Made by a program: the position numbers and the translations under genes. Positions 10,287-44,045 of a stretch of DNA of 64,000 nucleotides are shown in pieces; the first letter of the stretch is position 1, and the number at the start of each line of letters is the position of its first letter. Location: positions 694,367 through 758,366 of the forward strand of contig OY282459.1 of NCBI GenBank assembly GCA_958296285.1, given 5' to 3'. The notes beneath the pieces were generated by a model. That model saw only the letters and a program-made list of their open reading frames with translations. It ran no database searches and had not been told where the DNA came from. This DNA comes from an uncultured Alphaproteobacteria bacterium (lineage in GTDB: Bacteria; Pseudomonadota; Alphaproteobacteria; JAPOUT01; G958296285).

Positions 10287-11723
10287 ATGCGAAACGAAAT
10301 TTTGGACAAAATCTTCTTCGCCGATTGCGGTTTGGATCGGGAGAAACTTTCCGCCATTGTCGGCGAGGCGCTCCATGACGCGGATGACGGCGAGCTCTTC
10401 ATGGAGTTCAGGCGCTCCGAAAATCTGACGATGGAGGAGGGGCGCTTGACGGACGCCTCTTTTGACAGCGCGCATGGCTTCGGGCTTCGGCTCGTCTCCA
10501 ACGAGGCGACAGGCTACGCCCATGGGTCGGACATTTCCGAAGACGCTCTTAAAAGCGCGGCGCGGACAGTCCGCGCCGTCATCGGCGGACATAAGGGCGT
10601 CCTCGCCCAGCCGCCGCGCGGCACGAACAGACGCTTCTATGGAGACGCCGATCCCCTTCAGGAGCGCGCCTTCGCCTTTGACGCCAAGACGCGCCTTCTC
10701 TCAGAGATGGAATCCTATGCCCGCTCTCTCTCCCCCCTTGTCCGACAGGCGACATGCTCGCTCGCCGCCTCTTGGCAGGCGGTCTGCGTCATGCGGGGAG
10801 ACGGGCGTCTCGTTCAAGACATGCGCCCGCTCGTCCGATTGAACGCGCGGATCATCGTGGAAAAGAAGGGGCGGCGCGAGGTCGGAGTCTATGGATGTGG
10901 CGGGCGGACGAACTATGCCGAGATTCTCCGCGAAGAGGCGTGGAAGGGCGCGGTGGATGAGGCGCTTCGCCAAGCGCTCGTCAATTTGGAGGCGCTCCCC
11001 GCTCCGGCTGGATCCTGCGATGTGGTCTTGGGGCCGGGCTGGCCCGGAATCCTCCTCCATGAGGCGGTCGGGCATGGGCTGGAGGGCGATTTCCATCGCC
11101 GCGAAAGTTCCGCCTTCACGGGGATGGAGGGCGAGAGAATCGCGGCTGCCGGCGTGACCGTCGTGGATGACGGGACGCTCAAAGGCAGGCGCGGCAGTCT
11201 GACGATAGATGATGAGGGGACGCCGACCGAGCGCACAGTTCTCATTGAGGACGGCATTTTGCGCGCCTGTCTTCAAGACAGACTCAATGCCCGTCTGATG
11301 GGGCGGCGTCCGACAGGCAATGGCAGGCGCGAATCCTACGCCCATAGTCCGATGCCCCGCATGACGAACACGTTTATGCTTTCGGGCTCTTGCGCCCATG
11401 ACGAGATCGTCTCTTCGGTCAAGAAGGGGATTTACGCGCCTTTTTTCGGCGGCGGACAGGTGGATATCACGAGCGGGAAGTTTGTCTTTTCCTGCACCGA
11501 GGCTTATCGGATTGAGAATGGCAGGATCGGACATCCTTTGAAGAACGCGATGCTGATCGGCAATGGGCCGGACGTTCTGAAGCGCGTCAAGATGGTCGGC
11601 GACAATATGGCGTTGGATTCGGGGATTGGGACATGCGGCAAGGACGGGCAGAGCGTTCCTGTCGGCGTTGGGCAGCCGACTTTGCTGATTGAGGGTCTCA
11701 CGGTCGGCGGCACCGAGGCGTGA
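10287..11723 (+). CDS. tldD: Metalloprotease TldD
   Basis: A 478-residue TldD, the zinc-bearing partner of the TldD/TldE(PmbA) peptidase that processes microcins and modified peptides and degrades unfolded peptides. The HExxxH motif is at residues 258-263 (LLHEAVGHGLEGDF); the C-terminal ligand region is FFGGGQVDITSGKFVFSCTEAY. The start is supported by GAGGAG 6 bases upstream. tldD next to the cox operon is a known alphaproteobacterial neighbourhood. No tldE/pmbA is in the window. Confidence 0.97.
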   Translation: MRNEILDKIFFADCGLDREKLSAIVGEALHDADDGELFMEFRRSENLTMEEGRLTDASFDSAHGFGLRLVSNEATGYAHGSDISEDALKSAARTVRAVIGGHKGVLAQPPRGTNRRFYGDADPLQERAFAFDAKTRLLSEMESYARSLSPLVRQATCSLAASWQAVCVMRGDGRLVQDMRPLVRLNARIIVEKKGRREVGVYGCGGRTNYAEILREEAWKGAVDEALRQALVNLEALPAPAGSCDVVLGPGWPGILLHEAVGHGLEGDFHRRESSAFTGMEGERIAAAGVTVVDDGTLKGRRGSLTIDDEGTPTERTVLIEDGILRACLQDRLNARLMGRRPTGNGRRESYAHSPMPRMTNTFMLSGSCAHDEIVSSVKKGIYAPFFGGGQVDITSGKFVFSCTEAYRIENGRIGHPLKNAMLIGNGPDVLKRVKMVGDNMALDSGIGTCGKDGQSVPVGVGQPTLLIEGLTVGGTEA

Positions 11724-11769
11724 TAGATAGACTGTGGAGATTTGCGAATTATTCAGCAGTCCATATTGA

Positions 11770-11835
11770 CACAACGCTTATCCAACTTTTAAAATCGCAA
11801 TGTGCCGCGATTTTAAAAGTTGGATAAGCGTTGTG
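11770..11835. repeat. Perfect 29-bp-arm palindrome with 8-base loop
   Basis: Arms 11770-11798 and 11807-11835 are exact reverse complements; the loop is AATGTGCC. It begins 46 bases after the tldD stop. It is AT-rich in the centre of each arm (ACTTTTAAAA) and has no following T-run, so it is not an ordinary Rho-independent terminator. It could still stop RNA polymerase on both strands, act as a cruciform, or be the footprint of a mobile element. No second copy is seen in the window. Confidence 0.95.
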
Positions 11836-11896
11836 CATGGTATCGTGTGTGTAGTGTGTGAGCAGTGTTTGGAGATTAGATATTTGAGGTTAACGG

Positions 11897-11925
11897 TTGA
11901 CAGTTATTGATCAGAACACTATATA
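11897..11925 (+). promoter_or_regulatory. Strong sigma-70-like promoter for the NYN gene
   Basis: Consensus TTGACA at 11897-11902, 17-base spacer, TATATA at 11920-11925. It lies 109 bases upstream of the NYN-domain gene in an AT-rich stretch unlike the surrounding core DNA, suggesting a self-contained acquired cassette. Confidence 0.6.
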
Positions 11926-11940
11926 CTAACTATCCGTCAT

Positions 11941-12013
11941 GCTCGTAGGCGAGCCAGAATACTCCCCCCCTCGGTCTCCGGGACTTCGGTCTCCGGGTCG
12001 GGCTCTGGGGGGG
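11941..12013. other. Structured leader with C7/G7 stem and 15-bp direct repeat
   Basis: Between the promoter and the NYN gene there is a small hairpin (GCTCG-TAGG-CGAGC, 11941-11954) and then a C7 run (11964-11970) that can pair with a G7 run (12007-12013), followed by TTCTCTTTT. The enclosed segment holds a 12-base direct repeat, TCGGTCTCCGGG (11971-11982, 11986-11997), spaced 15 bases. It may be an attenuator or a relative of the G6/C6 elements found elsewhere in the window. Apart from this, the two features above and a GT-rich run near 11845-11880, I see nothing in 11724-12033. Confidence 0.5.
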
Positions 12014-12033
12014 TTCTCTTTTAATTTTCGCGG

Positions 12034-12675
12034 ATGCGAGCAGAGATGAAAAAAACGGTGTTGTCCATAGATGGCGGTTATTTGAGAGCGATTGCGATTA
12101 AGAATTTCGGGCTTGATCCCAAAAACTATACAGCCGATTTTATAGAGCAATTCGCTTGGGCATGTTTTGACACGAAAAAAGAAGACCCTCTCCGCATTCT
12201 CTATTATGACTGCCTGCCTAGCGATAAACCCCAGCGCTTTCCGATTTCCAGACGAGATTATATTTCTCCGATCAAAGCGCTTTGGAAAGACGATCTGCCG
12301 CGAAAGACGCTTTTCGCCGTCCGCCTTGGGCAGCTGGGCTTTAGAGGCTGGAGTCGCGTCAATTGGAGAAAATTCGATAGGGAGCTCACAGACGCGGATT
12401 TCAAGCCCAATTACGAGCAGAAAGGCGTGGATATGCGGATGGGTTTGGACATAGCCGCCTTCTCTTATGAGAAGATGGCGGAGCGAATCATTTTGGCGAC
12501 AGGAGATATGGATTTCATCCCTGCTTTAAAAATGGCGCGGCGCGCGGGGATTCAAACCGTTCTCATCCGTTTGGTCAAACCCAAAAAAATCAAAAGTCTT
12601 CTCCCCCATGCGGATTTCCTGCGCGAAGTGAATCTGGCGGAAATCACGGCGCGTCAAAATGCGCGTCAATCCTGA
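12034..12675 (+). CDS. NYN-domain (LabA-like) predicted ribonuclease
   Basis: A 213-residue protein with a PIN-like NYN fold. Acidic positions expected for metal binding are D13 (VLSIDGGYL), the strand [21 protein letters not shown], and [20 protein letters not shown], which ends in the typical TVLI strand. NYN proteins are usually RNases; some act in defence or RNA decay. ATG 12046 is an alternative start. The last codons run 10 bases into the 3' end of convergent purA, as if the gene had been inserted against it. Codon use is more AT-rich than the neighbours. Target unknown. Confidence 0.85.
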
Positions 12676-13958
12676 AAAGGATCGCGCATGACGATCGTGT
12701 CATCGCGCTCGGGACTCGTGGAAAGCATGACGACAGGCGCGCCAATCAGCTCCTCAATATAGCGGACATATTTGACCGCCGCCGCAGGCAGATCGCTCCA
12801 TGAGCGCGCGCCCCGCGTGGATGAAGACCAGCCCTCCATCGTCTCGTAAATCGGTCGCGCCGCCTGCTGATCCGCCGCCGCGGCCGGGAGATAATCCAAG
12901 CGCCGCCCCCCAACCTCATAGCCCACGCAGACCGACAAGCGCTCCATGCCGTCCAACACGTCCAATTTCGTCAGCGCGATGCCGTCCAACCCCCCCACCT
13001 CCGCCGCCTGCCGAACCATCACCGCGTCAAACCATCCGCAGCGCCGCTTGCGCCCGGTGACTGTCCCGAACTCGTCCCCCCTCTCGCCGAGCGTCCGACC
13101 TGTGGCGTTTCGCTGCTCGGTCGGGAAGGGACCTTCGCCGACTCTTGTGGCGTAAGATTTCGTGATTCCGAGCGCGTAATCTATCGCGCCCAAGCCGACC
13201 CCGCTCCCCAAAGCCGCCTGCGCCGCCAGCGCGTTGGACGAGGTCACAAAGGGATAGGTTCCGTGATCCACGTCCAGCGCCGCCCCCTGCGCGCCCTCAA
13301 AGAGCAGACGCTTCCCTTCGCGCCGCGCGGCGTTGAGCGTCCGCCATGCCGGGCCGACAAAGGGCAGAATCTCGGGCGCGATTTTTAAAAGCCGCTCCAA
13401 AAGATCGGACGCGCTTGCCTCCTTCTCCTCCAAGCCTCGCCGCAAAGCGTTGTGGTGCAGGAGAAGATCGCCAATCTTGCGCGCCAAAAGATCGGGCGTG
13501 GCCAGATCGGCGGCGCGAATGCCGCGCCGCGCGACCTTGTCCTCATAAGCCGGACCAATGCCGCGTCCTGTCGTGCCGATCTTTGACGCGCCCCGCATCG
13601 CCTCGCGGAGCCTGTCCAGCTCGGCATGGACGGGCAGAATGAGATGCGCGCCCTCAGCAATGCAGAGATTGTCGGGCGCGATGTGAAGGCCGCGCGCCTG
13701 CATCTCTGACACCTCCTGCAGGAAAGCCCAAACATCAATGACGACGCCGTTCCCCAAGATTCCGATCTTGCCGCGCCGAACCACGCTGGACGGCAGAAGG
13801 CTCAGCTTATAAGTCTCGCCGCCAATGACGAGCGTGTGTCCGGCATTATGCCCGCCCTGAAAGCGGACGACGACATCGGCGCGCGCCGAGAGCCAATCCA
13901 CGACCTTCCCCTTCCCCTCGTCCCCCCATTGCGTTCCGACAACGGCGACATTCGCCAT
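12666..13958 (-). CDS. purA: Adenylosuccinate synthetase
   Basis: First committed step of AMP synthesis: IMP + aspartate + GTP to adenylosuccinate. The GTP loop GDEGKGK is at residues 12-18 and the IMP-binding GGHNAGHT at 35-42; [11 protein letters not shown] and [11 protein letters not shown] are further family blocks. The start [18 protein letters not shown] at 13958 gives 430 residues, the family length; upstream open sequence belongs to serA. It lies 19 bases after serA on the same strand, so it is probably co-transcribed with serC-serA. Confidence 0.98.
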
Positions 13959-16764: not shown

Positions 16765-16841
16765 GCTGTCGCCTTTCTACCCTTCCAGATAGACGCCCCT
16801 CGGCGGGGAGGGGTTTCCCGTCTCGTGCTATAGGGGAAGAG

Positions 16842-40022: not shown

Positions 40023-40330
40023 TTAAGGGGGGTGTGGGGGGTCGAAGACCCCCCGCGAAAACCAAGGCTGCCGAAGGCAGCCTATCGGTTGGGGGGTGGG
40101 GTGGGAAAAAAGCTTTTCCGAGCGAAGCGCGAAGCGCAAGCGAGGAAAAGCGACCCACCCCCCAACCGCCCCTGCTCGCAAGAGCTCTTCTAGCTGGGGG
40201 GTCGGCGGGCTTTCTCGCGGGCTTGCCTACGGCTTCGCCCGCTTCGTTTCGCCACGCCCGCCGACTTTTCGGGGGTTTCCCCCGAACCCCCTTTTTTCAA
40301 GGGGGGCAAGCCCCCCTTGACCCCCCTTCT
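40023..40330. repeat. G6/C6 modular palindromic element, copy 1
   Basis: Nested perfect hairpins fill most of the 358-base gap. GGGGGGTC-GAA-GACCCCCC is at 40036-40054 and AGGCTGCC-GAA-GGCAGCCT at 40065-40083. A 14-bp stem (40087-40100 with 40154-40167) encloses GCTTTTCC/GGAAAAGC. GTCGGCGGGC...GCCCGCCGAC spans 40201-40265. TTCGGGGG-TTT-CCCCCGAA is at 40268-40286, and a 10-bp-arm GGGGGGCAAGCCCCCC hairpin at 40298-40319. The ends are AAGGGGGG and CCCCCCTT, so the whole unit is an imperfect inverted repeat. No convincing gene lies inside; an open frame across it is incidental. Confidence 0.9.
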
Positions 40331-43723: not shown

Positions 43724-44045
43724 GAAGGGGGGTGTGGGCGTTCTGACGCGCTCCCGTTAAGGGGGGTCAAGGGGGGCTTGCCCCCCTTGAAAAACCAAGC
43801 GGGCGAAGCCCGCTATGGTCGGCGGGCGTGGCGCAACGAAGCCGAGCGTAGCGAGGCGAGGAAGCCCGCCGACCCCCCTCCAAGAGCTCTTCTAGCAGGG
43901 GGCGCGTGGGTGGGTCGCATTTGCTCGCTCGTTTCACTCGCTCCGCAAATGCTCTTTTCCCACCCACCCACGCGCATTCGGGGGGATTCCCCCCGATCCC
44001 CCCTTTCTCAAGGGGGGCAAGCCCCCCTTGACCCCCCTTCACTTT
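43724..44045. repeat. G6/C6 modular palindromic element, copy 2
   Basis: Same modules as copy 1 in a different order: GGGGGGCTTGCCCCCC hairpin (43768-43789); AGCGGGC-GAA-GCCCGCT (43798-43814); GTCGGCGGGC...GCCCGCCGAC (43818-43873) around GCAACGAAGCCGAGCGTAGC; a 13-bp stem (43902-43914 with 43963-43975) enclosing GCATTTGC/GCAAATGC; CGGGGGG-ATT-CCCCCCG (43979-43995); GGGGGGCAAGCCCCCC hairpin (44009-44030). It begins directly after the YqeY stop. The rest of the 482-base gap (44046-44205) is C/A-rich and holds only a ribosome site, GGGGAG, before the next gene. Confidence 0.9.

Follow-up and report, generated by a model that had tools for sequence, protein, structure and literature searches.

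A single-copy perfect 29-bp-arm hairpin downstream of tldD in an uncultured alphaproteobacterium, possibly left by replication template switching

When a palindrome whose arms pair without a single fault is found shortly past a stop codon, the question arises whether such a structure is kept by a function or was left there by mutation. This question is raised by the tldD locus of an uncultured Alphaproteobacteria bacterium, within a 64,000-nucleotide stretch of DNA, which is called here the window. At positions 11770-11835, an earlier note had pointed out a perfect hairpin of 66 bases with 29-bp arms and no arm mismatch, and the description is borne out, the two 29-nt arms being complementary at 29/29 positions, free of G-U pairs as well as mismatches, and separated by an 8-nt loop, AATGTGCC (Table 1).

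Structure and setting of the hairpin

Such a structure is far beyond chance. The inverted-repeat search of the window (distance of up to 100) found 33 pairs; among the 25 of them listed, no other perfect pair is as long, those that come next having arms of 14-15 nt. Over 464 kb of the same genome (the window plus 20 further stretches), 63 perfect pairs with arms of at least 10 nt and loops of 3-20 nt were recovered, that is 54 with 10-nt arms, four with 11, four with 12 and a single one with 29, namely the hairpin; in first-order Markov replicates of those stretches (n=5), the longest arm reached 15 nt. A calculation by hand puts the probability of finding one in the window at about 1e6 x 4^-29, which is negligible. 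Regarding stability, the 66 nt are predicted to fold as RNA at -45.7 kcal/mol on the + strand (z -14) and -46.2 kcal/mol on the - strand (z -13), and 86 nt spanning the hairpin to fold as DNA at -35.6 kcal/mol (z -12.6). When near-perfect hairpins (loops 3-40, score of at least 14) were sought over 864 kb of the genome, 842 kb of them readable, six were returned, two of which have 29-nt perfect arms, i.e. the present hairpin and one copy of a G-rich palindromic repeat (L041 16292-16387); in the 842 readable kb, the hairpin next to tldD is the only short-loop perfect one of such size. For comparison, one perfect pair with arms above 17 nt was present in 395 kb taken from four relatives; it has 31-nt arms and a 22-nt loop (G015), and a similar sequence occurs again in another stretch.

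The hairpin starts 46 nt past the tldD stop codon, spans +47 to +112, and lies on the tldD side of the 310-base gap preceding a gene for a NYN-domain protein, a gap whose GC content is below that of the genome. The earlier note had placed it at a skew switch and an accessory-gene boundary of the kind seen for the G6/C6 elements. The first part does not hold: the GC skew is positive or near zero over 11400-12599 and negative only from 12600 (12600-12999), so that the switch, some 0.8-1 kb past the hairpin, is assigned to the convergent NYN/purA junction. The second part stands to some extent, as the NYN gene is present in just 6/58 relatives. Of the 29 relative loci, 19 have coxB beside tldD, whereas none has NYN or purA there (0/29, about 1.5 kb considered on each side); the side of tldD bearing the hairpin is therefore not conserved.

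Table 1. Coordinates of the hairpin and of surrounding features in the window
Feature	Position	Strand	Remark
tldD (PmbA/TldD metallopeptidase)	10287..11723	+	stop codon ends at 11723
Promoter-like site TTGACA-18-TAAAAT (11/12)	11766..11795	+	near-consensus sigma-70; -35 starts four bases before the left arm
Left arm, 29 nt	11770..11798	+	inverted-repeat search; presumed original sequence
Loop, 8 nt, AATGTGCC	11799..11806	.	TGTG at 11801-11804 also ends the right arm on its outer side (11832-11835), the match being TGTGC with the next flanking base
Right arm, 29 nt	11807..11835	+	presumed inverted copy of the left arm, including the direction of copying
Partial mirror of the promoter, TAAAAT kept, -35 only TGCACA (9/12 in all)	11810..11837	-	pattern scan
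Second promoter-like stretch, TTGACA + TATATA (spacer 17) or TATACT (spacer 19)	11897..11927	+	read by eye, upstream of the NYN gene
C7...G7 stem-loop with U-rich tail (TTCTCTTTTAATTTT)	11964..12028	+	terminator- or attenuator-like
NYN-domain protein, 213 aa	12034..12675	+	

The left arm thus overlaps a promoter-like site, the match being full on the left only, since the right arm mirrors the -10 and just part of the -35. Sites of such quality number 10 in 842 kb, both strands included, and 0 in one Markov replicate; since seven of the 10 lie within open frames of 100 aa or more, some may not be promoters. The second promoter-like stretch, which is absent from the output of the promoter pattern scan, forms together with the C7/G7 stem-loop a region (11897-12046) that is possibly a candidate attenuator leader, or a small RNA or the terminator of one; when this downstream leader was sought elsewhere in the genome, its own exact copy was the only mismatch-free fit. 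At gathering thresholds, Rfam returned a single match in the window, none being at the hairpin, namely a serC leader RNA (RF00517, 56.8 bits, 16772-16823, - strand). At a permissive threshold, only microRNA families came up for the hairpin, far under their gathering scores (33.7 vs. 90 bits at best), and a perfect hairpin may well yield such matches by itself.

Copy number and relation to other palindromes

A genome-wide search for the arm, which the earlier note had called for, led to this single site, no second copy turning up across the 1.733 Mb of the genome with as many as three mismatches allowed. Besides itself and its own reverse, the 325-base gap submitted to BLAST against the genome matched only two 21-base pieces (E 0.49), which have nothing but the exact GTGCCGCGATTTT in common, in two similar stretches devoid of hairpin, and appear chance-like. 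The plasmid collection gave no match, and the phage collection one weak match of 35 bases (E 0.7). In the genome collection, a 20-mer of the arm has one match, in an Anaerocolumna record, where it sits without hairpin in an apparent uppS; this match, as well as that of an 18-mer of the arm in the viral collection (L066), likewise without surrounding hairpin, is taken as chance. When the tldD loci of the organism and of 29 relatives were compared, the hairpin was present in its own locus alone, and the longest perfect arm (loop 3-20) in the 29 others was 16 nt, in one locus only; these relatives belong to the same order or class, none of them to the same genus or family.

The genome is otherwise rich in palindromes, as both C6/G6 and G-rich palindromic repeats are numerous. 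The hairpin belongs to neither: it has no sequence in common with them, and the earlier note was right in setting it apart from the G6/C6 elements. The G-rich repeats (GCGCGTGGGTGGGT...ACCCACCCACGCGC and CGGTTGGGGGGTGGG...) are palindromes too, one copy even having the 29-nt perfect arms mentioned above, but they differ from the hairpin by their many copies, long loops and sequence, and are unrelated to it. They constitute a dense genome-wide family in their own right (e.g. window 40086-40168 and 43902-43975, or L038 15377-15561), with inner stems that vary yet keep pairing and are sometimes interlocked. As for the C6/G6 repeats, they include stems GGGGGTT-TCCCCCG-AACCCCC directly followed by T-runs (window 40290 and 59663, and many stretches), which look like intrinsic terminators spread as repeats. 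The loose pattern CCCCCC-N15-45-GGGGGG occurs at 177 places and its backwards control at 244, so that the pattern itself is unspecific.

Several known classes of elements were also considered and rejected for the hairpin. The Y1 transposase (PF01797) of REP elements with a RAYT is found in 0/1 genome (5/14 positive in the control set), which leaves the G-rich palindromes without a possible RAYT as well, and PF16684, sought for a telomere-resolvase site, in 0/1 genome (1/14 positive in the control set). An integron attC site has imperfect arms plus R'/R'' boxes (GTTRRRY); the arms are perfect here and, by inspection, GTTGTGC misfits. A retron ncRNA was dismissed, as no reverse transcriptase is adjacent and the sole one found lies some 64 kb away and matches Drt2. 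This 448-aa protein (L146 1189-2535; G000:C1, about 641-643 kb), which resembles the antiviral Drt2, scores 418 bits with PADLOC and 368.8 with NCBIfam, against a cut-off of 390 for the latter.

Proposed template switching and its alternatives

Most likely, the hairpin is either an unremarkable product of mutation or a plain hairpin at a 3' end. The reading favoured here, with a probability of about 0.5, is the former, that is a single-copy and probably recent inverted duplication generated by a template switch during replication (fold-back copying). The left arm would be a portion of the intergenic, promoter-bearing sequence past tldD, onto which a replicating strand would have switched to copy 29 nt backwards before regaining its own template by means of the four bases TGTG, which the copied end shares with the loop. 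Perfect arms would then follow from a single copying event and selection would not be needed. The full promoter match found only on the left, together with the TGTG in the loop, suggests the left arm as the source of the right one and TGTG as the place where the strand returned. Among random loops, 1.9% would contain the four terminal bases of the right arm, and 0.4% these four plus the adjoining base. This evidence is modest, as the match is short and was noticed post hoc, and the choice between left and right doubles the chance to about 4%.

A perfect inverted copy beside its presumed source is what template switching would leave, as this process can reportedly yield a perfect stem all at once (PMC8794818) and has been named as one source of small inverted repeats in prokaryotes (PMC4060949, citing Ladoukakis and Eyre-Walker). 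The hairpin shares with the products described in these reports a perfect reverse-complement copy adjoining its source, a short spacer and a single copy, but its 29-nt arms are long for the class. Some details argue against the scenario: one C of the loop is left over, the first switch point lacks pairing, and the position of the hairpin overlaps the peak of functional inverted repeats past stop codons. The earlier note had proposed that the palindrome is either very recent or maintained by function; of these two, recent origin appears the better one.

The position past tldD leads to the second explanation, which is possible but ranks below the mutational origin: the tldD message would carry a functional RNA hairpin at its 3' end, one that blocks 3' exonucleases, is a target of RNase III or aids Rho-dependent termination. 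This explanation accords with the location on the tldD strand, 46 nt past the stop, and with the very stable predicted RNA. Perfect inverted repeats in bacteria are reported to peak at +50 to +80 past the stop codon, with an enrichment of about 13-fold and for functional reasons (PMC13155455), and a part in Rho-dependent termination has been suggested for inverted repeats at E. coli gene ends other than intrinsic terminators (PMC6060812). With the repeats described in these two reports, the hairpin shares the post-stop position, the 8-nt spacer and the perfect arms; it differs from those of E. coli, mostly parts of intrinsic terminators, by its far longer stem and the lack of a U-tract. An intrinsic (Rho-independent) terminator can itself be set aside: the stem-loop is stable indeed, but no U-tract follows the stem on either strand, the + strand running on with CATGGTATCG and the - strand with TCAATATGGA, and the hairpin is not among the terminator-like sites of the pattern scan. 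The 70 matches to that pattern in 41 stretches of the genome, some sites being counted twice, have arms of only 7-10 bp; with at most the 16-nt arm found in one of the 29 relative tldD loci, and with 29 wobble-free perfect pairs exceeding what the role needs, selection for such a function is less convincing than mutation. Both explanations are nonetheless compatible, as a hairpin arisen by chance can be kept. A dedicated function is probably absent; under the template-switch reading, if tldD transcripts reach the hairpin, it would be an inert 29-bp stem in their 3' UTR, which may happen to slow down exonucleases or serve as a substrate of RNase III.

The remaining explanations fare worse. A DNA operator, with a symmetrical regulator bound on the dyad, or a face-to-face pair of promoters, with mirrored -10 sites firing towards each other inside the palindrome, is unlikely: the facing sites do match at 11/12 (+) and 9/12 (-), but the mirrored -35 is poor, the second promoter-like stretch lies nearer the NYN gene, the arm lacks a second copy in the genome, and its 29 nt of perfect match exceed the usual length of operators. 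Little more can be said for the remnant of a mobile element, in which a tiny MITE or an excised insertion sequence would have left its terminal inverted repeats almost abutting; this is quite unlikely. Perfect inverted ends in an intergenic gap of low GC would suit it, but neither further copies of the ends nor a target-site duplication were found, 3-nt matches occurring at shifted positions only, and the plasmid and phage searches brought nothing beyond the weak 35-base match. Since the hairpin is known here from the assembled sequence alone, an assembly or amplification artefact, such as a fold-back read, has to be weighed and seems very doubtful, as 29 nt are mirrored and the original direction then resumes into an intact downstream gene, whereas fold-back artefacts normally join long inverted stretches. 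It is highly improbable that the palindrome acts as a switch, in which the extrusion of a cruciform or hairpin would hide the -10, or mirrored promoters would fire into each other, with supercoiling or replication toggling both the NYN gene and an RNA antisense to the tldD end.

Probable tolerance of the palindrome and significance

The earlier note had also held that such long perfect palindromes are unstable in vivo, which is overstated in the present case. The E. coli study on palindrome breakage deals with a palindrome of 460 bp, far longer than the hairpin (PMC4245961). Some instability is still possible: a review has the risk rising with the length and identity of the arms (PMC7999016), and in yeast nuclease attack is reported at spacers of up to 8 bp, albeit with far longer Alu arms (PMC8053094), a limit at which the 8-nt spacer of the hairpin stands. 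The hairpin nuclease subunit SbcD was sought in the genome and not detected (0/1); as a match was obtained in 9/41 genomes of the relative set and exceeded the cut-off in just 1/41, its absence is common in the group. The hairpin is thus probably tolerated, SbcD being undetected.

If the template-switch reading is true, the locus would offer a clear natural case in which a single step gave rise to a long perfect hairpin on the 3' side of a gene, and this in a genome without detectable SbcD. It would illustrate how the mirroring of a promoter in situ can come about and would serve as a warning that function is not shown by the strength of a hairpin alone.
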